This document shows, in pieces, positions 50,863-64,000 of a DNA stretch of 64,000 bases. The stretch comes from Lacinutrix sp. C3R15 (GTDB taxonomy: Bacteria > Bacteroidota > Bacteroidia > Flavobacteriales > Flavobacteriaceae): NCBI RefSeq assembly GCF_018860825.1, contig NZ_JAHKPZ010000004.1, forward strand, positions 248,001 to 312,000, written 5' to 3'. The first letter of the stretch is position 1; each line of letters begins with the position of its first letter. Position numbers and translations under genes: made by a program. Under the pieces are notes generated by a model. The model was given only the letters and a program-made list of their open reading frames with translations. It did not search any database and was not told where the DNA came from.

Positions 50863-50952
50863 CATTCATCTACACTTATTTAACATTCATCTACTTAAAC
50901 AAGCGGTTTTGTAGAAAGTTTTATAATGCACCTTAATCTTCATTTAATTTTA
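50863..50952 (+). promoter_or_regulatory. Paired LytTR-type sites and -7 box of the orphan gene
   Basis: CATTCATCTACAC (50863-50875) and CATTCATCTACTT (50884-50896) start 21 bp apart. A -7-like TAATTTTA begins at 50945, 61 bp from the start of the second site. The layout equals that of three other promoters here and puts the transcript start downstream of the ATG at 50926. Confidence 0.7.
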
Positions 50953-50976
50953 CCCTTGTTAATCCAAACAAGTGTT

Positions 50977-51312
50977 ATGTTATACAAAAAACTACCCTCA
51001 GGACGCTTTTTAAAAAAAATAAGTAAATGTGTCTTTAAAAGAAATAAAACAATACAATCCGTTAGTAAAAATGACGATAAAATACTGGTATTAGAAAACA
51101 ATAGTGAAGCTAGTAATTTGCAAGTTGTTAAAATAGATGTAGTAGATAAAAGCATTAAAAACTTAGAGTTTATTAATCATTTAGAAATGAATTTAAAAGA
51201 CAAGCAATTAGATAATTTGCCGATGGAGTTTTTAACAGATTTAAAACAACAAAAGCAGCATTCTCAAAAGAATCTTCTTATTAATTTAGAATCTAAAGAT
51301 CATAAAAAATAA
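50977..51312 (+). CDS. Small orphan protein under the LytTR-type promoter
   Basis: 111 residues from ATG 50977 (MLYKKLPSGRFLKKISK). An upstream in-frame ATG at 50926 lies before the -7 box and is rejected. The product is lysine-rich, with no signal peptide in this reading, no membrane helix and no recognised domain; the C-terminal third is predicted helical (EFLTDLKQQKQHSQKN). It sits between the tRNA fragment and the signalling operon, transcribed in the same direction, 137 bases before the first operon gene, and shares its paired operator. Function unknown. Confidence 0.65.
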   Translation: MLYKKLPSGRFLKKISKCVFKRNKTIQSVSKNDDKILVLENNSEASNLQVVKIDVVDKSIKNLEFINHLEMNLKDKQLDNLPMEFLTDLKQQKQHSQKNLLINLESKDHKK

Positions 51313-51335
51313 AAATATTTACAGATTTGTAAAAC

Positions 51336-51424
51336 CATTCGTCTACACTTAAGCGTCATTCGTCTACACTTAGATTATTATAAACGAATTAAAATTTTTA
51401 AATTACTGAATTCAACTAATTTTA
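51336..51424 (+). promoter_or_regulatory. Paired LytTR-type sites and -7 box of the H-NOX/FIST operon
   Basis: CATTCGTCTACAC at 51336-51348 and again at 51357-51369, identical and 21 bp apart. TAATTTTA begins at 51417, 60 bp from the second site. The operon's last gene encodes a LytTR regulator, so this is a candidate autoregulatory promoter. Confidence 0.75.
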
Positions 51425-51449
51425 TTCAGATTCATAATATACCCTCTAT

Positions 51450-51863
51450 ATGACTAAGAAACTAAAAATTCTTCTTATTGAAGATGACATGATAGAAATA
51501 ATGAAATTGAATAGAACAATTTCCACATTAAAATTAGACCACACCATAATTGAAGCCAATAATGGTGAAGATGCGCTACAATTATTAGAACAAAAAGATA
51601 ATTTACCAGATATTATTTTACTAGATTTAAATATGCCTAAAATTAATGGCATTGAATTTTTAAGTATTTTGAAAAAAGACGATGTTTTAAAATATATACC
51701 TACAATTATTTTAACTACTTCTAACAATCAAAAAGATTTATTAGAATGCTATAAAATAGGAGTTGCTGGATATGTTTTAAAACCTTTAAAATATGAAGAA
51801 TATGTTAGTAAAATTGAGAAATTATTGTCATATTGGAGTATTAACGAATTAATTGTAGTTTAA
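51450..51863 (+). CDS. Stand-alone receiver-domain response regulator
   Basis: 137 residues, receiver domain only. Acidic pocket D12/D13 (LLIEDDMIE), phospho-acceptor D59 (ILLDLNMPKINGIEF), T in ILTTSNN and lysine in YVLKPLKYEEY. No output domain, so it acts by protein contact or as a phosphate shuttle. First gene of the seven-gene operon, four bases before the H-NOX gene. Confidence 0.94.
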   Translation: MTKKLKILLIEDDMIEIMKLNRTISTLKLDHTIIEANNGEDALQLLEQKDNLPDIILLDLNMPKINGIEFLSILKKDDVLKYIPTIILTTSNNQKDLLECYKIGVAGYVLKPLKYEEYVSKIEKLLSYWSINELIVV

Positions 51864-51867
51864 AGCA

Positions 51868-52407
51868 ATGAAAGGAATAGTTTTTACCGAATTTTTAGAA
51901 TTAGTAGAAGATAAATTTGGATTAGAAATGGTAGATAATATTATCTCTAGTTCTACATTAGAATCTGAAGGTATTTACACTGCAGTTGGAACGTATAGTT
52001 TTTCCGAAATGTTACAATTATTAGGGCATTTAAGCGAAAACACAGGTATATCAATAGATAATTTACTGTTGGTATATGCCGAACATTTTTTTAGTGTTAT
52101 TGAAAAAAGTTATCCAGGGCTTTTAGCAACTTATAAAGACCCAATAGAAATGATTTCATCTATAGAAAATCATATTCACGTAGAGGTACGTAAAATTTAT
52201 CCAGATGCAGAATTGCCAACTTTTGAGGTTACTGATAAAACAGAAAACTCACTAGTAATGATATACAAATCCAGTCGTGCAATGCATCATTTTGGTTTGG
52301 GTTTAATGAATAAAACCTTCGAGCACTTTAACACAACAGCAAAAATAGATTTAGAAAAAATTAAAGAAGACGGAACGGAAGTTAGATTTATTATTCATAA
52401 AAATTAA
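51868..52407 (+). CDS. H-NOX haem nitric-oxide binding sensor protein
   Basis: 179 residues, full length for a stand-alone H-NOX. The haem-ligand histidine is H104 in NHIHVEVRKIYPDAELP and the haem-propionate motif YxSxR is Y133-S135-R137 (YKSSR). The N-terminus MKGIVFTEFLELVEDKFG is typical. Bacterial H-NOX proteins bind NO through ferrous haem and modulate a partner histidine kinase. Here the partner is almost certainly the kinase encoded next, whose ATG overlaps this stop codon (TAATG). Confidence 0.95.
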   Translation: MKGIVFTEFLELVEDKFGLEMVDNIISSSTLESEGIYTAVGTYSFSEMLQLLGHLSENTGISIDNLLLVYAEHFFSVIEKSYPGLLATYKDPIEMISSIENHIHVEVRKIYPDAELPTFEVTDKTENSLVMIYKSSRAMHHFGLGLMNKTFEHFNTTAKIDLEKIKEDGTEVRFIIHKN

Positions 52408-54368
52408 TGAGTCAAGAGCAAGTACAAATATTACAACGTGCTTTAAAAAGAGAAAAAGCAGCAAGAAAAGCAGCCGAAAGTATTCTAGAAGAAAAATCAA
52501 GAGAACTTTACTTTACATCACAACGACTAGAACAATTACTAGACGAGAAATCTTCACAATTACAAGGTGTATTTGAAAACATTGTAGATGCATATGTTGT
52601 TATGGATTTACAAGGTAATTTTATAAAATTTAATGAAGCAGCAACTAAATTATTTGGTTACGACATTAGCAGAGAAAAGGTAAACGTTGTAAAACTTATT
52701 TATAAAGAAGATTATCCATACGCTATAGCTTCTTTTACACAGCTACAAACTAAAGGCTATTTTAAAAATTACGAAGCTAGAGTATACACCAAATCTAAAG
52801 AGGTTAAATGGGTACACATAAATGCAAGTGTGATTTTTGATAAAGATAAAAATCCAGTTGCTGCACAAGGTATTGTTAGAGATATAACAGACCAAAAAGA
52901 ATCTGAAGAAAAATTAATTGCATCAGAAAACAGATTAGCATCACTAATTGTAAATCTAGATAGTGGTATAGTGTTAGAAGACGAAAACCGAAACATTGTA
53001 CTTACAAATAATAAATTTTGTGAGCTTTTTAATATAGAAGCAAAACCATCAGATTTAATAGGAATGGATTGCAAAGCAGCTTCCGAAAAAAATAAAGTGC
53101 TCTTTAAAAACCCAGAATCCTTTCTGCAAAGAATACGTGCTATTGATGCAGCTAAAAAAGTAGTTATTGGTGATGATTTAGAAATGGTAGATGGTAAAAT
53201 ACTTGAGCGAAACTACATTCCAATAATAATAGGTGGTTCAAACAAAGGCTACTTATGGACATTTAAAGATGTAACCTTAAACAGAACCTATAGAAAAAGC
53301 CTTGAAGTTCAAAAACAAAAGTATTACAATATTATTGCCAACATGCATTTAGGCTTAATTGAAGTAGATACAAAAGGAAAAATTTTAATGGTAAATCAAA
53401 GTTTTTCTGAAATGTCAGGCTATAGCATGCAAGAACTTTCTGGTAAATTGTCAAAAGAGGTTTTTCCTATTGATAAAAAAAGCTCAGAAATAATAAAAGA
53501 TGAAAATATCAAGCGTAATAAAGGAGAGGCTAACTCTTACGAAATTCAAATAAAAAACAAAAACGGAGAAGAAAAATATTGGTTGGTAAGTGCTGCTCCT
53601 AATATTAATATAGAAGGAGTACAAACAGGATCTATTGGTGTTACTTTAGATATTACCGACTTTAAAAACCTTGAACTTCAAAAAGAAAAACTACTAAGCA
53701 AGCTTGAAAAAAGTAACGACGAGTTACAAGAGTATGCGCATATTGTATCACATGATTTAAAATCTCCATTGCGAAGTATACACGCATTAGTAAGTTGGTT
53801 AAAAGAAGACAATCAAGGCAAGCTAGATGATGTAAGTATACAAAATATAGGGCTAATTGAAACCACATTAGAGAAAATGGAACAACTTATTACAGATGTT
53901 TTAAATTACTCAAGTGTAGGTGCAGAGACCTCTTTAAAAACAGAAGTAGATTTAAATAGCTTAGTAAATGAATTAGTGTCTATTTTATATATTCCTGAGC
54001 ATATACAAATTAAAAGTTTACATGCATTACCAAATATAAATGGAGATAGAACCAAACTGCAACAGCTATTTCAAAATTTAATTAGTAATGCCGTTAAATT
54101 TATAGATAAAGAACAAGGTAGTATTATAATAGATGTTGAAGATTTAAAAAGTCACTACAAATTTTCAATCCAAGACAATGGTATTGGTATAGAAAAAAAA
54201 TACCACGATAAAATATTTAAGATATTCCACTCTTTAAAGAAAAGTAAAGATTCCTCAGGAATTGGTTTATCTATTGTTAAAAAAATTGTCAATTTACACG
54301 AAGGAGAAATTTGGTTAGATAGCAAACCAAACATAGGAACCACTTTTTATTTTACATTAAAAAAATAA
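52407..54368 (+). CDS. Multi-PAS histidine kinase paired with H-NOX
   Basis: 653 residues, no signal peptide or membrane helix, so cytoplasmic. An N-terminal coiled coil (about 1-52) is followed by PAS domains (about 53-170, 172-285 and 300-425; IVDAYVVMDLQGNFIKFNEAA and MHLGLIEVDTKGKILMVNQS), the phospho-acceptor H449 (YAHIVSHDLKSPLRSI) and an HATPase domain (NLISNAVKF, DNGIGIEKK, SSGIGLSIVKKIV). There is no receiver domain in cis, so the phosphate must pass to the separate receiver, Hpt and LytTR proteins. Translationally coupled to H-NOX. Confidence 0.95.
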   Translation: MSQEQVQILQRALKREKAARKAAESILEEKSRELYFTSQRLEQLLDEKSSQLQGVFENIVDAYVVMDLQGNFIKFNEAATKLFGYDISREKVNVVKLIYKEDYPYAIASFTQLQTKGYFKNYEARVYTKSKEVKWVHINASVIFDKDKNPVAAQGIVRDITDQKESEEKLIASENRLASLIVNLDSGIVLEDENRNIVLTNNKFCELFNIEAKPSDLIGMDCKAASEKNKVLFKNPESFLQRIRAIDAAKKVVIGDDLEMVDGKILERNYIPIIIGGSNKGYLWTFKDVTLNRTYRKSLEVQKQKYYNIIANMHLGLIEVDTKGKILMVNQSFSEMSGYSMQELSGKLSKEVFPIDKKSSEIIKDENIKRNKGEANSYEIQIKNKNGEEKYWLVSAAPNINIEGVQTGSIGVTLDITDFKNLELQKEKLLSKLEKSNDELQEYAHIVSHDLKSPLRSIHALVSWLKEDNQGKLDDVSIQNIGLIETTLEKMEQLITDVLNYSSVGAETSLKTEVDLNSLVNELVSILYIPEHIQIKSLHALPNINGDRTKLQQLFQNLISNAVKFIDKEQGSIIIDVEDLKSHYKFSIQDNGIGIEKKYHDKIFKIFHSLKKSKDSSGIGLSIVKKIVNLHEGEIWLDSKPNIGTTFYFTLKK

Positions 54369-54370
54369 CC

Positions 54371-55504
54371 ATGAAAACTGTACAATTAGTAAAACATAAA
54401 AATAAAGATTGGGAATATGTTATTAAAAAACAAGAGTTAAAAGAACCTTTAGTCTTGGTTTTTGGTAACAGATATATGTTAGAAGCCAAAGATGTTTATA
54501 AAGATATTAAGCAATTATTTCCAGATGGACATATTGTTTTTGCATCCTCATGTGCAGAAATTTCATCGAATACAGTAAATCAAGATAGCATTACTATAAC
54601 AGCTATCGAGTTTGAAAAAAGTAAGTTTGTAATTAAAACAAGTAATGTTTTAAACGCAGATTTAGATAGCTATAAAACAGGAAATGATCTTATTAAACAA
54701 TTACCTCCAGAAGGTTTAAAATATGTATTTGTAGTTTCTGAAGGTAGTTTTATTAATGGTAGCCAACTTACCAAAGGTATGAGTGCTGCTCCAGCAGATA
54801 ATTTAATAATAACAGGAGGTTTATGTGGTGATGATGCTCGTTTTGAAAAAACACTAGCAGCCTACAATGAAAACCCAAAAGAAGGAGAATTAGTGGCTAT
54901 TGGCTTTTATGGAGACACACTAGAAATTTCTTTTTCTATTCATGGTGGTTGGACACCTTTTGGACCAGAGCGTACAGTAACAAAATCTAAAGGAAATACC
55001 TTGTTTGAGTTAGATGGCAAACCAGCTCTTGATTTATACAAAACCTATTTAGGTGATAAAGCTAAAGATTTACCAGGAGCAGCTTTATTATATCCTTTAA
55101 ATGTGAAGTCTACAGACCAAAAACAATCTATTGTAAGGTCTATTTTAAATATAAATGAAGATGAAAATGCTGTAATTCTAGCAGGAGATATTAAAGAAAA
55201 CTCTAAAGTACAGCTCATGATGACCAATGTAGATCATATTGCAAACGCATCAGAACGTGCCGCTAAGCAAGCATTAGAGTACAGAAATAATAAACCAGAA
55301 TTAGCAATATTAGTAAGTTGTATTGGTAGAAAATTAGTGCTAGATCAACGTGTAGAAGAAGAAATTGAAGAGGTTATTGAGGTTATAGGTAAAGACGCCG
55401 TTATTAGTGGTTTTTATTCTTATGGCGAAATTGCGCCTTTTAATAACGAAATGGCTTGTCAATTACACAACCAAACCATGACTGTAACGCTAATTAGCGA
55501 ATAA
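54371..55504 (+). CDS. FIST domain sensor protein (NosP-like)
   Basis: 377 residues with FIST_N (about 30-215, GHIVFASSCAEISS, GGLCGDDARFEKTLAAYN) and FIST_C (about 220-360, GKPALDLYKTYLG, VSCIGRKLVLDQRVEEE, SYGEIAPFNNEMACQLHNQT; quoted in part). FIST proteins include NosP, a haem protein that senses NO and regulates an adjacent histidine kinase in several proteobacteria. Two bases after the H-NOX kinase gene and overlapping the next kinase gene by one base, it is placed to be the sensor of the second kinase. Haem binding cannot be shown from sequence. Confidence 0.93.
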   Translation: MKTVQLVKHKNKDWEYVIKKQELKEPLVLVFGNRYMLEAKDVYKDIKQLFPDGHIVFASSCAEISSNTVNQDSITITAIEFEKSKFVIKTSNVLNADLDSYKTGNDLIKQLPPEGLKYVFVVSEGSFINGSQLTKGMSAAPADNLIITGGLCGDDARFEKTLAAYNENPKEGELVAIGFYGDTLEISFSIHGGWTPFGPERTVTKSKGNTLFELDGKPALDLYKTYLGDKAKDLPGAALLYPLNVKSTDQKQSIVRSILNINEDENAVILAGDIKENSKVQLMMTNVDHIANASERAAKQALEYRNNKPELAILVSCIGRKLVLDQRVEEEIEEVIEVIGKDAVISGFYSYGEIAPFNNEMACQLHNQTMTVTLISE

Positions 55505-56568
55505 TGAATTCATTACTAAAAAGACAGATTCGTAAATATTTAAGCGAAGATTTAAAAAATAATGCCGAAATAGCTGCATTTATTAATGCGGTGAATCTTT
55601 CTTACAATAATTTTGACGAACAATCTAGCATGATTCAAAGAGCTATGTCTATTAGTTCTGATGAGTTATATGCTGCTAATAGAAAATTACAAAACGAAGC
55701 AGAAGAACAAAAAAAAGTAATAGAGAAGTTAAAAAGTGTTATTAATACCCTAAAATATTATAACCTAGAAGAAGACCATAAACCAGGAAATGTTGAGCTA
55801 ACAGGTTCTAATTTGGTAGATTTTATAGATAATCAAACCAAAGAGATCATTGAAATGAACAAGCAAAAACAAGCGCTTTTAAATGAATTAGCACACCAAA
55901 ATCAGGAACTTAGTGACTATGCACACATGGTGTCTCATGATTTAAAATCACCATTGCGTAGTATTGATACCTTAACGGCTTGGTTGGCACAAGATTATAA
56001 CGATATTTTTGATGCTAATGGTATAAAAACGTTAAACCTTATTAGAGACAATGTAGAAAAAATGGATACCTTAATTAGTGGTATTTTAGAGTATTCAACC
56101 ATTGGTAAAAATGAAGTAGCAATTTATGATGTAGACGTAAACAATCTAATAGATAACTTAATAAAAACGCTTCATATTCCTAAACATATTCATATTACAA
56201 AAACCAATTTACCAATAATTAAAGGAGATAAATACAGGTTACAACAACTGTTTCAAAACCTAATTGGCAATGCTGTAAAGTATAATGATAAAGCAAAAGG
56301 AACTATTGAAATTGGTGTAAAAAACCTAGATACATACTGGCAATTTTATATAAAAGATAATGGTAAAGGTATTGAAGAGGCTTATTTTGATAAAATTTTT
56401 AAAACCTTTGAAAAATTAGAAAACAATCCAGATTCTTCAGGTATTGGTTTGTCTATTGTAAAAAAAATTGTCGAATTATATGGTGGCAAAATATGGCTAG
56501 AATCTCAAGTTAATATAGGAACCACTTTTTATTTCACCTTAAAAAAATCACCCAATGGAACAGCCTAA
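55504..56568 (+). CDS. Cytoplasmic histidine kinase paired with FIST protein
   Basis: 354 residues. No PAS or membrane segment; an N-terminal helical region (about 1-125, coiled coil ELYAANRKLQNEAEEQKKVIE) leads into H145 (YAHMVSHDLKSPLRSI) and an HATPase domain (NLIGNAVKY, DNGKGIEEA, SSGIGLSIVKKIV). Its H-box and catalytic half are close to those of the H-NOX-linked kinase, pointing to duplication within the operon. The stop of the FIST gene and this start share an A (TAATG). It overlaps the Hpt gene by 14 bases. Confidence 0.94.
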   Translation: MNSLLKRQIRKYLSEDLKNNAEIAAFINAVNLSYNNFDEQSSMIQRAMSISSDELYAANRKLQNEAEEQKKVIEKLKSVINTLKYYNLEEDHKPGNVELTGSNLVDFIDNQTKEIIEMNKQKQALLNELAHQNQELSDYAHMVSHDLKSPLRSIDTLTAWLAQDYNDIFDANGIKTLNLIRDNVEKMDTLISGILEYSTIGKNEVAIYDVDVNNLIDNLIKTLHIPKHIHITKTNLPIIKGDKYRLQQLFQNLIGNAVKYNDKAKGTIEIGVKNLDTYWQFYIKDNGKGIEEAYFDKIFKTFEKLENNPDSSGIGLSIVKKIVELYGGKIWLESQVNIGTTFYFTLKKSPNGTA

Positions 56569-56872
56569 TCAATCTTACATTAACAGCTTGTCTGGAGGCG
56601 ATGAAGCTTTTAAACAAAAATTAATAAACGTTATTAAAAAAGAGTTTCCAGAAGAGAAACAAGTGTATTTAAATAACTATAATGCTAAAAATTATAAGTT
56701 AGCAGCAGATAATGTACATAAACTTAAACATAAAATTAGTATTTTAGGCCTTGAAAAAGGGTATGACGTTGCCGTAGCTTATGAAAATAATTTACTTGAA
56801 GGTTCTACAAACCAGAAAGAAGCATTTGAAGCTATTTTAAATAGCATAACAACATACCTAGAAGAACTTTAA
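56555..56872 (+). CDS. Hpt domain phosphotransfer protein
   Basis: 105 residues. The phospho-histidine is H55 in ADNVHKLKHKISILGL, a slightly altered HxLKG motif with K-H-K in place of K-G-S. It carries phosphate between receiver domains. Lying between two kinases upstream and a LytTR regulator downstream, it is the natural meeting point of both branches. It is nine bases before the LytTR gene. Confidence 0.88.
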   Translation: MEQPNQSYINSLSGGDEAFKQKLINVIKKEFPEEKQVYLNNYNAKNYKLAADNVHKLKHKISILGLEKGYDVAVAYENNLLEGSTNQKEAFEAILNSITTYLEEL

Positions 56873-56881
56873 ATTTACCTT

Positions 56882-57595
56882 ATGAATTGTATTGTTATTG
56901 ACGACGAAGCTACAGCAAGAATGATTATTTCGCAATTGTGTTCTAATGTGCCAAGTCTTACTGTTTTAGAAGAGTTTCCTAATGCAATGCAAGCCATAAA
57001 ATACTTAAATCAAAACGAAGTAGATTTAATTTTCTTAGATATACATATGCCAGATTTTACAGGTTTCGATTTTATTGAAACCCTAAAAACTCCTCCAAAA
57101 ATAATTCTTACTACCTCAGATCCTAATTTTGCAATTCAAGCTTTTGAGTATGATTGTATAGTAGATTATTTGGTAAAGCCAATAACCCAAGAACGTTTTA
57201 ATAAAGCTATAGCTAAAGCCGAAGCAAAACAGAACAAACCAGTTGCAACTAATTCAAAAATAGAAAAGGTAGCAGCTACTTCTGGTAATGATTTATATGT
57301 AAATATTGATAGACGCTTAATTAAAATTGATATACCAAGTATTTATTTAGTAGAAGCTAAAGGAGATTATATTCAGGTTAAAACCGAAGATAAAAACTAT
57401 ACAGTACATTCTACTTTAAAAAAAATTGAAGAAAAACTTCCTGATAGTTTGTTCTTAAAAGTACACAGGTCATATATTATTAATGTCATGAAAATTATTG
57501 ATATTGAAGATAACAGTGTTTTAATTAAAAAAGATGTTATTCCTGTTAGCAGATCTAATAGACCAGAATTAATGAAAAGACTAAATTTATTGTAA
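56882..57595 (+). CDS. LytTR family response regulator
   Basis: 237 residues. Receiver domain (1 to about 120) with D53 as phospho-acceptor (IFLDIHMPDFTGF) and K in YLVKPITQE; LytTR DNA-binding domain (about 135-237, VEAKGDYIQVKTEDKNYTVHS, KVHRSYIINVMKI, RSNRPELMKRL). LytTR domains bind paired direct repeats about two helical turns apart, which fits the 21-bp spaced elements before four nearby promoters. Last gene of the operon and the presumed output. Confidence 0.95.
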   Translation: MNCIVIDDEATARMIISQLCSNVPSLTVLEEFPNAMQAIKYLNQNEVDLIFLDIHMPDFTGFDFIETLKTPPKIILTTSDPNFAIQAFEYDCIVDYLVKPITQERFNKAIAKAEAKQNKPVATNSKIEKVAATSGNDLYVNIDRRLIKIDIPSIYLVEAKGDYIQVKTEDKNYTVHSTLKKIEEKLPDSLFLKVHRSYIINVMKIIDIEDNSVLIKKDVIPVSRSNRPELMKRLNLL

Positions 57596-57723
57596 ATCTA
57601 GTATTACATCGGTTTTTTAAGTCGTTTGTCTTAAAACATTTTCAAACTCTATTTAAAATAACAATTAATAGTATTCCTATTACCTTTACATAGTAATCAG
57701 TTTAAGGGTATATTGATTTCTAT

Positions 57724-57760
57724 AAAAAAAAGACAGAAAACTAATTTTCTGTCTTTTTTT
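57724..57760 (+). terminator. Terminator of the H-NOX/FIST operon
   Basis: AAAAAAAGACAGAAAA-CTAA-TTTTCTGTCTTTTTTT, a long perfect hairpin ending in a T run. It separates the operon from the CAP lipoprotein gene. Confidence 0.92.
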
Positions 57761-57798
57761 ATGCATAAAATTTTATAAAAGTAACACAGTGTTTATTG

Positions 57799-57888
57799 TG
57801 TTTGTCTTCAGTGGTTTACTGTTTGTCTATACTTAGAAATGCACTAATCGAAAAACATAAAAAATAATAGTCTTTCCGTCTAGTTTTG
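57799..57888 (+). promoter_or_regulatory. Paired LytTR-type sites and -7 box of the CAP lipoprotein gene
   Basis: TGTTTGTCTTCAG (57799-57811) and TGTTTGTCTATAC (57820-57832) are 21 bp apart; TAGTTTTG, an exact -7 match, begins at 57881, 61 bp from the second site. A further GCACTAATCGAAAAACA block follows the pair and recurs at 58454. Confidence 0.75.
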
Positions 57889-57910
57889 TCATCAAATAAA
57901 CCTAATCACG

Positions 57911-58405
57911 ATGAAAAAAATAGTCATAGTAGCAGTCTTTTTATTAAGTGCTTTTTTAACATCTTGTTCTGTAGAAGAAACAAGTAATACCGAAAAAGCC
58001 TTTAGTGCAGAAACCATACAAGTAGAATACACCATTCTAGATTATGAAATTGCAGAGTTAATAAATGCACACAGAATTTCAATAGGTATTAATGCTTTAA
58101 ATATAATAGACCATGCTTCGTTTGAAGCAATTACGCATAACCAATATATGGTTGATCAGGGCGAATTGAGTCATGATAACTTTAGTTTACGTTCTCAAAA
58201 CTTACAAGAAGCAGTTCATGCAATAAAGGTGTCAGAAAATGTTGGCTATGGTTATTCTTCTGCAGCATCTTTAGTTAATGCTTGGTTGCAAAGTGAAGGT
58301 CATAGAGAAACAATAGAAAACACAACGTTTACAGATTTTGGTATTTCTTCTAAAAAAGATGAAGCAGGTAAAGATTATGTTACTAATATTTTTATAAAAC
58401 TATAA
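57911..58405 (+). CDS. CAP/SCP domain lipoprotein
   Basis: 164 residues. Signal peptide with lipobox LTSC (C19), so it is anchored to a membrane. The CAP (SCP/PR1) cavity residues are visible: H in ITHNQYMVDQG, E in KVSENVGYGYSS and H in SEGHRETIENTTF. CAP proteins bind lipids or sterols or act on cell-surface polymers; the role in bacteria is largely unknown. It has its own paired-site promoter, so it is a probable target of the LytTR regulator. Confidence 0.9.
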   Translation: MKKIVIVAVFLLSAFLTSCSVEETSNTEKAFSAETIQVEYTILDYEIAELINAHRISIGINALNIIDHASFEAITHNQYMVDQGELSHDNFSLRSQNLQEAVHAIKVSENVGYGYSSAASLVNAWLQSEGHRETIENTTFTDFGISSKKDEAGKDYVTNIFIKL

Positions 58406-58412
58406 TTAAAAT

Positions 58413-58501
58413 AGTTTATCTACACATAATTACCATTCGTCTACACTAAAATTGCACTAAACGAAAAACACATTTTAAGGCTAATTTGTAAAGTAAATTT
58501 G
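58413..58501 (+). promoter_or_regulatory. Paired LytTR-type sites and -7 box of the T9SS protein gene
   Basis: AGTTTATCTACAC (58413-58425) and CATTCGTCTACAC (58434-58446) are 21 bp apart. TAAATTTG, an exact -7 match, starts at 58494, 60 bp from the second site. GCACTAAACGAAAAACA follows the pair, as at the CAP promoter. Confidence 0.78.
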
Positions 58502-62863: not shown

Positions 62864-64000
62864 TTACTCTCTAAAAATTGGCTTCTCAAACAACAACCAT
62901 TTAAAACGAATACCTATCTCATTATAGGTGAATCCTGCTGCAGTTGCAGATGCAATATTACTTCGTGTAGCAAATATATTTGCCATACAACGAGTAGAAA
63001 ACTTATAACCTAATTTTCCTTGAAAGCGATAGGTACTTTGGCTGCTATCATTATCAATATATTGTAAACCAGTTGCAGCTGTTAGCTCATAAAACCATTC
63101 TTTAGGTTTTGCTGTGTTTTCGTCTTTAATAATATTAGCAAATACTTCAGCCGCATTAAATTTTTCTGGCGAAAAATAGATTGTTGGTACTTGGTTTTTA
63201 AAGGTTATGTATTGGTAGTTTATTCCTGCCTTTAAGGATGGTTTTGGTAAAATGTTATAATATAAAGAAGTAAATAATAAGTTTCTGGCATTATCATCAC
63301 TCTGGCTGGTATAAAAATACTGTGTAAACCAACCCAAGTTAAAATTTGTATTTAAACTGTAGTTTGCATAATAGTTGTTTTGTACAATTTCTCTGTCTAA
63401 TAATTCGGCATTAAAACTTTGTAATTCACGTTTATAACCAACGGTTAAATCTTGTAGTTTAAACGGTTTTATGTTTATAGAAATATCTGTTAAAAATTGG
63501 GTGTAGTCATTGGTAGTTGCTTTTGCCGAAGTTAAACCTGCTGTTCCTTTAAAAGTTGTGTTTGGGAATAATTGATAGGAAATACCTAAACTAAAGTCGT
63601 TTGAAGTTGCTTCGTTATTTGTTACAGGATTGTTTGTGCTTCTGTAATTATAACTTCCTAAGATTTTAAATTTTGTGGAAAAAGGAAATTCTAAAGTATT
63701 ATTAAATGCAAAAGCTTCGTTATCTCCATTATCAAAAGAGTAGGAAGCTTTTCCTTCATAAAAGGGAGTAAAGGTGGTGTTGAGGTTTTTTATAAAGTTT
63801 GTTGCATCTTTTTGGTTTTTGTAAAACTTCAAGGTGTTTTCTGCAGAAGTATATGCATCTTCATATTTTCCTAATGCTTTTAAAGCATTTGCATTTCCTA
63901 AGTTTCCATCAAAAGAAGTGCTGTCGTTAACCAAAATCTGGTCATAATCTTTTACACTTTTTTTAAAGTCACTTTTGTAAATGTTAAGTGTTGCACGTAA
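62864..64000 (-). CDS. TPR plus outer-membrane beta-barrel protein, N-terminus outside window
   Basis: The frame is open to base 64000, so the gene continues beyond the window and the TTG at 63934 is internal; 378 residues are visible. The first part (LRATLNIYKSDFKKSV; LGKYEDAYTSAENTLKFY) is TPR-like. From about residue 75 the sequence alternates like transmembrane strands of an outer membrane barrel (FNNTLEFPFSTKFKILGSYN, FSLGISYQLFPNTTF), ending IGIRFKWLLFEKPIFRE. Function unknown; an export or assembly pore with a TPR periplasmic domain is possible. Confidence 0.75.
   Translation of the reverse strand, partial: LRATLNIYKSDFKKSVKDYDQILVNDSTSFDGNLGNANALKALGKYEDAYTSAENTLKFYKNQKDATNFIKNLNTTFTPFYEGKASYSFDNGDNEAFAFNNTLEFPFSTKFKILGSYNYRSTNNPVTNNEATSNDFSLGISYQLFPNTTFKGTAGLTSAKATTNDYTQFLTDISINIKPFKLQDLTVGYKRELQSFNAELLDREIVQNNYYANYSLNTNFNLGWFTQYFYTSQSDDNARNLLFTSLYYNILPKPSLKAGINYQYITFKNQVPTIYFSPEKFNAAEVFANIIKDENTAKPKEWFYELTAATGLQYIDNDSSQSTYRFQGKLGYKFSTRCMANIFATRSNIASATAAGFTYNEIGIRFKWLLFEKPIFRE

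Follow-up and report, generated by a model that had tools for sequence, protein, structure and literature searches.

The question raised by this locus is which protein recognizes a set of paired direct repeats, and what it controls. The repeats lie in a 64-kb stretch of the genome of Lacinutrix sp. C3R15, a member of the Flavobacteriaceae (contig NZ_JAHKPZ010000004.1, positions 248,001 to 312,000; termed the window below). The genome measures 3.61 Mb, and the contig is designated C42 in its coordinates. Four promoters of the window carry two repeats each, 21 bp apart, at a nearly fixed distance from the -7 box. One of them precedes an operon for a stand-alone receiver (REC) protein, an H-NOX sensor of nitric oxide (NO), two histidine kinases, a FIST-domain protein, an Hpt-like protein and a REC-LytTR response regulator. 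Our analysis points to the repeats as operators of that regulator, encoded at 56882, and we assign this reading a probability of about 0.86. It is carried by the conservation of the repeats among relatives and by the co-occurrence of operator and LytTR ortholog across genomes of the family.

The repeats, their register and the proposed regulator

All eight half-sites listed in a preliminary description of the window were found at their positions, with a step of 21 bp within each pair. The -7 boxes begin 61, 60, 61 and 60 bp past the start of the second site (at 50945, 51417, 57881 and 58494). The pattern TTYRTCT-N14-TTYRTCT occurs exactly four times in the window, at these four sites; 100 dinucleotide shuffles of the window gave a mean of 0.04 matches and a maximum of 1. 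The preliminary description had also proposed a genome-wide scan. It yielded 21 exact matches, 17 of them outside the four sites, and with at most one mismatch the seven-base pair pattern was not enriched (133 + 92 matches, against 180 + 163 for the reversed control). The short pattern is thus at chance level genome-wide and, taken alone, would satisfy the refuting condition given in the preliminary description; a longer element proved selective and does not satisfy it. Since the short pattern was not selective, it was replaced by profiles, one trained on relatives only and one, the sequence-only model R1, built from 36 sites for searching the own genome. R1 contains the four window sites, which therefore match it by construction. 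The sites and the signalling operon are as follows.

50863..50896, + strand: operator of the small-protein gene, repeats 1 (50863) and 2 (50884); 34.7 bits (at 50865) with the relatives-trained profile; E 7e-7 in the own-genome profile, which includes the site itself
50908..50918, + strand: degenerate third repeat TTTGTAGAAAG of the small-protein promoter, 43 bp from the first; from the sequence, register as in relatives
50945..50952, + strand: -7 box TAATTTTA of the small-protein promoter, from the sequence
51336..51369, + strand: operator of the signalling operon, repeats 1 (51336) and 2 (51357); 54.1 bits (at 51338) with the relatives-trained profile; E 5.6e-10 in the own-genome profile, which includes the site itself
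51382..51392, + strand: degenerate third repeat ATAAACGAATT of the signalling operon, 44 bp from the first; from the sequence
51417..51424, + strand: -7 box TAATTTTA of the signalling operon, from the sequence
51450..51863, + strand: stand-alone receiver (REC) protein; Pfam Response_reg 80.6 bits
51868..52407, + strand: H-NOX (HNOB) haem NO sensor; Pfam HNOB 136.8 bits (cut-off 25.5)
52407..54368, + strand: PAS histidine kinase; Pfam PAS (three stretches), HisKA and HATPase_c
54371..55504, + strand: FIST/FIST_C protein, NosP-like, under the NosP cut-off; Pfam FIST and FIST_C
55504..56568, + strand: second histidine kinase; Pfam HisKA and HATPase_c
56555..56872, + strand: Hpt-like phosphotransfer protein; 19.7 bits, under the Pfam cut-off of 24.6
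56882..57595, + strand: REC-LytTR response regulator, the proposed operator-binding protein, on Pfam and operator co-occurrence; LytTR 74.4 bits (cut-off 22.6), Response_reg 66.9 bits (cut-off 30.2)
57799..57832, + strand: operator of the CAP gene, repeats 1 (57799) and 2 (57820); 2.8 bits (at 57801) with the relatives-only profile; E 0.011 with R1, which includes the site itself
57844..57854, + strand: degenerate third repeat CTAATCGAAAA of the CAP promoter, 43 bp from the first; from the sequence
57881..57888, + strand: -7 box TAGTTTTG of the CAP promoter, from the sequence
58413..58446, + strand: operator of the gene for a type IX secretion system (T9SS) protein, repeats 1 (58413) and 2 (58434); 36.2 bits (at 58415) with the relatives-trained profile; E 6.9e-9 in the own-genome profile, which includes the site itself
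58457..58467, + strand: degenerate third repeat CTAAACGAAAA of the T9SS-protein promoter, 42 bp from the first; from the sequence
58494..58501, + strand: -7 box TAAATTTG of the T9SS-protein promoter, from the sequence

Specificity comes from the extended repeat (CCATTCGTCKACACTTAA as consensus), together with the third repeat and the promoter register. The CAP site, the weakest of the four, is not separable by the relatives-only profile, because two unrelated places on the minus strand of the window score 3.7 and 3.2 bits. Its main support is the register, along with the operators that precede CAP genes in four loci of relatives (L077, L078, L081 and L082).

Conservation was examined with the H-NOX protein of the window, which was found in 106 of 299 genomes of the same family, its own included. 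Stretches of about 13.5 kb were taken from 80 of the 105 other H-NOX-positive genomes. Most of these 80 loci preserve the order REC, H-NOX, PAS kinase, (FIST), kinase, Hpt, LytTR; at E 1e-4, REC, H-NOX and both kinases were found in 80/80, Hpt in 79, LytTR in 78 and FIST in 45. A double site (CCATTCGTCKACACTTAA twice, 21 bp apart) was present at most 200 bp upstream of REC in 77 of the 80 relatives, the exceptions being L130, L142 and L147, and the same threshold was passed by 2 of 4000 shuffled sequences. When halves were held out, each repeat run recovered 38–40 of 40 sites, and the shuffled score was 0/40 in all 10. A second set of 80 named relatives (including Lacinutrix, Olleya, Winogradskyella, Psychroserpens, Algibacter and others) gave a double site in 78 of the 79 with a co-oriented REC gene; this set overlaps the first and is not independent of it. 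The paired repeats are hence a predicted binding site that is kept across the bacterial family. Sampling across the class (295 genomes) turned up the LytTR ortholog in four genomes, all of the same family and the window's own among them.

The operators proved to be more than pairs. The 21-bp steps are exact, as first described, but each operator consists of three tandem repeats (at about 0, 21 and 42–44 bp), the third being degenerate. For 53 of 77 REC operators the third repeat (TTNNNCGAA) matches best at +42 or +43, counted from the first, and any other offset accounts for at most 4. It stands at +42 to +44 in all four window promoters, so that the last interval is 21–23 bp. An element shared between repeat 2 and the -7 box was considered as the site of a separate factor or as an inverted half-site and was rejected; it keeps close to the 21-bp register and shares TTNNNCGA. 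Counted from the first repeat, the -7 box comes at +79 to +81. A matching -7-like box at these fixed offsets, or at exactly one repeat less (+58/+59), was found for 95 of 182 operators of the 80 loci, against a background of about 0.6–1 match per position elsewhere. When these 95 were aligned on the -7 box, the repeats fell at about -79, -58 and -37, and nothing beyond AT richness was conserved between third repeat and -7 box.

The consensus of Bacteroidota promoters we take to be a -7 box TAnnTTTG together with a -33 box. Two of the window -7 boxes fit TAnnTTTG strictly and two end in A. Promoters that have a -7 box and no recognizable -33 box suggest an activator-dependent type.

The binding protein was sought by co-occurrence. 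An ortholog of the LytTR protein was defined by E ≤1e-70, a limit chosen after viewing the match list, and an operator match by E 0.01. In the 299 genomes both were present in 102, LytTR only in 11, the operator only in 13 and neither in 173; an operator match was thus obtained in 102 of 113 genomes with the ortholog versus 13 of 186 without. Operator presence tracks the ortholog, which supports the LytTR assignment of the preliminary description. In a smaller run at E 0.1, operator matches were obtained in 17/17 H-NOX-bearing genomes and in 2/7 without H-NOX. LytTR is, moreover, the only DNA-binding domain that a Pfam scan found in the signalling operon.

Two genomes separate the components. 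In G172 and G227 the H-NOX operon (L142 and L147) has neither LytTR nor operator; REC and LytTR lie elsewhere, and there REC is preceded by a strong operator (42.2 and 40.4 bits). Attribution of the operator to H-NOX instead of LytTR is not favoured, although the comparison of discordant genomes involves small numbers and gives no significant difference. It was also seen, by eye from N-terminal sequences, that the separate REC-LytTR module of these genomes (L175 and L176) lies just 3' of assimilatory nitrite reductase-like genes, which may hint at a nitrogen-oxide context. Another genome carries two tandem copies of the LytTR ortholog (G131:C1:1376298-1378238), 71 and 69% identical to that of the window.

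Predicted targets and the neighbouring polysaccharide genes

The targets first proposed were an orphan gene, the signalling operon itself, a CAP lipoprotein and a T9SS protein. The corresponding genes and other features of the window are given here.

50977..51312, + strand: small protein of a conserved family, 111 aa from the ATG 3' of the -7 box
57730..57760, + strand: terminator-like hairpin and T run between signalling operon and CAP operator, by eye from the sequence
57911..58405, + strand: CAP-domain protein with a lipoprotein-like N-terminal signal (by eye); Pfam CAP 47.4 bits
58527..61133, + strand: DUF6923 protein with a type IX secretion tail, by family search
62864..64000, - strand: C-terminal part of a 686-aa TPR protein that continues past the window end

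In the 80 loci away from the signalling operator, 112 sites scoring above 12 bits lay on the strand of the operon and 2 on the opposite strand; the reversed profile gave 1 + 1 and column-permuted profiles a mean of 0.5. An ATG frame of at least 80 codons starts 60–135 bp on from 78 of the 112 sites, versus 368 of 1600 random positions. The genes that follow encode, among others, T9SS, CAP, small and STAS proteins, UDP-glucose and GDP-mannose dehydrogenases, glycosyltransferases and flippase-like membrane proteins, one of the last without a Pfam match.

The own genome was searched with R1. Nine matches at E ≤1 were obtained among the 150 of 1559 first-look candidates that were scored. The best seven lie on one strand within 24 kb (C42:298860-322772), and the remaining two have E 0.7 and 0.9. 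Three of the seven are beyond the window end, before polysaccharide genes: a STAS-protein gene (92 aa) with a Polysacc_synt flippase gene behind it; a gene for a glycosyltransferase of group 1; and a gene for a fusion of a receiver with a family 2 glycosyltransferase (GT2), followed by a second GT2 and phosphomannose isomerase. These three sites were not in R1, though sites of relatives before similar genes were. The nearest relative (G168) shares this order of operator-bearing genes up to the end of its stretch. The predicted regulon includes the targets first named and is larger, polysaccharide-centred and extended by three promoters past the window end; the T9SS protein, with its operator at 58413, is one of several proposed targets. 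Judged from these sequences, one regulator very probably controls both the sensor operon and the neighbouring surface-polysaccharide gene cluster. Two genomes have such operators on other contigs: G196 before a REC-GT2 gene, and G288 several in a cluster that resembles the polysaccharide cluster of G034.

The receiver-GT2 fusion (L166:14856-16040, equal to C42:322856-324040) scores 85.7 bits for Response_reg and 77.8 for Glycos_transf_2. In another locus a receiver is fused to a bacterial sugar transferase (L172:5272-6459; Bac_transf 180, Response_reg 35.7 bits). The phosphorelay might act directly on such receiver-fused enzymes.

The supposed orphan gene at 50977-51312 is no orphan. A search of 81 stretches, the window among them, gave 18 open reading frames of its family in 15 stretches, every frame upstream of the REC operon, with a common C-terminal motif around NLKxLEFINxLE. 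An operator is near the start in 13 of the 18, that of the window included. The window protein had no match in Pfam or NCBIfam, and members scanned against Pfam had none there.

Some further observations concern the surroundings. Genes for a glycosyl-hydrolase-like, a 405-aa and a 1029-aa protein (the last without a Pfam match) lie between operator-bearing genes at L166:8861-14675 (- strand). The same gene order is seen in G168, G091 and G014, and a polysaccharide module is possible. The TPR gene is divergent from the next operator, at C42:312971 (which would be window position 64971); its product probably carries an outer-membrane barrel and has a partial PgaA match (50 bits versus a cut-off of 367). 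In G071, three equal-scoring operator-model matches stand at exact steps of 238 bp (C1:2367442, 2367680 and 2367918), which suggests a tandemly repeated unit.

Proposed signal and mechanism, and alternative explanations

The window H-NOX aligns with PDB 6bdd over 179/179 residues (E 3.6e-95), and its HNOB gene adjoins the histidine kinase gene at 52407. It may be noted that the molecule name of PDB 6bdd/6bde is '2,4-dihydroxyhept-2-ene-1,7-dioic acid aldolase', though the chains are H-NOX; 6BDD is used as Kordia algicida H-NOX (Ka H-NOX) in PMC7356049 (cited, like the papers below, from excerpts). Assignment of the FIST protein as NosP was rejected, at 60.2 bits versus the curated NosP cut-off of 450. 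The Hpt-like protein does not pass the Pfam cut-off; its size, gene order and conservation (79/80 loci) are compatible with Hpt. A Pfam scan found no receiver domain in the two kinases, so a stand-alone REC plus Hpt would complete a split phosphorelay. The search for GGDEF gave 0 matches in the window's genome and was positive in 8 of 14 control genomes. The usual cyclic di-GMP output of H-NOX is therefore probably not available here.

The following mechanism would fit. The H-NOX and FIST proteins, to judge from their domains, would set the activity of both kinases, and phosphate would pass from kinase to stand-alone REC, Hpt and REC-LytTR. The regulator would bind its three tandem repeats from the same side of the helix, at steps of two turns. 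The third lies immediately upstream of the position expected for a -33 box, and the regulator most likely acts there as an activator. Phosphorylated LytTR would then switch on its own operon and the genes for the small protein and for the two surface proteins (CAP and T9SS), together with the neighbouring polysaccharide genes (STAS-flippase, glycosyltransferase, REC-GT2/GT2/phosphomannose isomerase). An NO link of the regulon is plausible. In its widest form, the proposal is a matrix regulon common to the Flavobacteriaceae, in which two gas-type sensors, H-NOX and a NosP-like FIST protein, would feed one split phosphorelay, and polysaccharide would be controlled twice, in transcription through three-repeat LytTR operators and in enzyme activity through receivers fused to glycosyltransferases or sugar transferases of the same islands; we advance it tentatively, as possible rather than probable.

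The strongest alternative accepts the regulon and disputes the signal: H-NOX and FIST would be accessory inputs to a kinase-Hpt-LytTR core that senses something other than NO, for example redox state or surface contact. G115 and G005, both outside the list of H-NOX genomes, have REC-kinase-Hpt-LytTR and operators with no H-NOX adjoining, and FIST is present in only 43 of the 80 loci at E 1e-15. These two genomes rule out H-NOX as the sole input; H-NOX is a common, dispensable one. On the other side, 100 of the 113 LytTR-positive genomes also have H-NOX, and the window protein is closely similar to a solved H-NOX, so that we hold a signal other than NO to be unlikely, though well worth keeping in view.

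It is also conceivable that the regulator is a repressor that blocks RNA polymerase, as reported for CoxC, and that phosphorylation or NO relieves the repression. There is a published case of a LytTR repressor whose operator of three repeats overlaps the -35 box (PMC11347149). Here the third repeat starts about 35–37 bp upstream of the -7 box with no conserved -33 box between, an arrangement that fits an activator-dependent promoter better, and repression appears rather improbable.

That another transcription factor binds the sites, such as one of the genome's 13 further LytTR regulators, and that the nearby LytTR gene is merely a target, we consider very unlikely. The genome does have 14 LytTR genes, so cross-talk is possible, and 13 of the 186 ortholog-less genomes have an operator match; one of these, G025, has it with no relative of the operon nearby. 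Operator presence nevertheless follows this particular ortholog, and operators accompany REC-LytTR where it stands apart from H-NOX. Moreover, ten sampled genomes without the ortholog keep 3 to 18 other LytTR genes each, yet the operator list at E 0.01 contains not one of them (G006 reached E 0.054 in the smaller run). Chance resemblance, or repeat DNA with no regulatory role, can practically be dismissed, for the lack of enrichment of the seven-base pair pattern is set against conservation in 77/80 relatives, a strand bias of 112 to 2 with controls near zero, and a -7 box at a fixed distance.

The 14 LytTR genes and the mismatched genomes (11 of 113 with LytTR and no operator match, besides the 13 just named) also weigh against our assignment to the regulator at 56882, as do the behaviour of the short pattern, the weakness of the CAP site and several further points. 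The mismatches may arise partly from the stricter filter used above 40 genomes and partly be real exceptions; G002, G018, G063 and G135 do have relatives-profile matches, as L098, L146, L131 and L150. Related genomes are not independent, and the Fisher p for LytTR-operator co-occurrence overstates the case. Among genomes with a single one of the two proteins, 9 of 13 with LytTR only versus 2 of 6 with H-NOX only have an operator, which is the expected direction but not significant (p 0.32). No -7 match stands at the fixed offsets for 87 of the 182 operators. Some sites may have been missed, the candidates scored being the 150 of 1559 in the own genome and 21 per genome in the 299-genome search. 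Lastly, in G175, G213 and G229 the operators distant from the operon do not precede recognizable polysaccharide genes: that of G213 precedes a 1004-aa, apparently secreted protein and that of G229 a 237-aa protein without assigned function, while for G175 no target was assignable.

Relation to known systems and significance

LytTR proteins usually bind two 9-bp direct repeats spaced 10–13 bp, and RcoM1 and CoxC use three (PMC11347149). The window regulator has a receiver-fused LytTR domain, with direct repeats in a 21-bp register upstream of target promoters in the window and its relatives, and this register fits the canonical pair. RcoM1 and CoxC are alike in having three direct repeats about two helical turns apart (at 18–21 bp intervals; in the window the steps are 21 and 21–23 bp) and a link to gas sensing. 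Their repeat, however, is TTNNNGCN (PMC11347149), and the one here TTNNNCG/CT; they bear a carbon monoxide (CO) sensor on the same protein and have CO oxidation targets, whereas the window protein is REC-LytTR only and is encoded with kinases. AgrA, which uses direct repeats, and AlgR share the LytTR output domain with the window regulator, but their input proteins differ. The AlgR consensus CCGTTCGTC is one base from the window half-site CCATTCGTC, and AlgR also controls polysaccharide (alginate) genes; its sites are not necessarily 12-bp-spaced direct repeats (PMC4064291), in contrast to the fixed three-repeat array and fixed -7 distance here.

According to two reviews, H-NOX outputs run mostly through cyclic di-GMP enzymes or Vibrio phosphorelays (PMC8738867, PMC6769237). 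In Vibrio fischeri, as proposed here, H-NOX acts on a kinase, named HahK (PMC6769237), and, probably via the Hpt domain of SypF, on the syp polysaccharide genes (PMC8738867). The excerpts of these two papers mention no LytTR or FIST partner, and NO-H-NOX lowers biofilm there. The Kordia algicida H-NOX (PDB 6BDD), which aligns with that of the window over its full length, is treated for structure and gas migration in the excerpt of PMC7356049, which describes no downstream circuit. NosP resembles the window FIST protein in its FIST and FIST_C domains, in a gene beside kinases and in a partial model match of 60 bits, which is far below the model cut-off of 450. Every single element thus has its counterpart among known LytTR and H-NOX systems. 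For their combination, in which a whole family has fixed three-repeat operators, no paper was found among the matches listed from the open-licence PMC literature.

For the Flavobacteriaceae, the analysis supplies a concrete list of candidate H-NOX targets, namely seven promoters here and a profile that finds them in other family members. For the Bacteroidota, it adds a promoter type of fixed geometry that is apparently activator-dependent. It suggests that Kordia-type H-NOX has a role in controlling secreted surface proteins and matrix polysaccharide, here in a genome with no detectable GGDEF. If the wider proposal is true, it would describe a route from NO to the biofilm matrix that needs no cyclic di-GMP.

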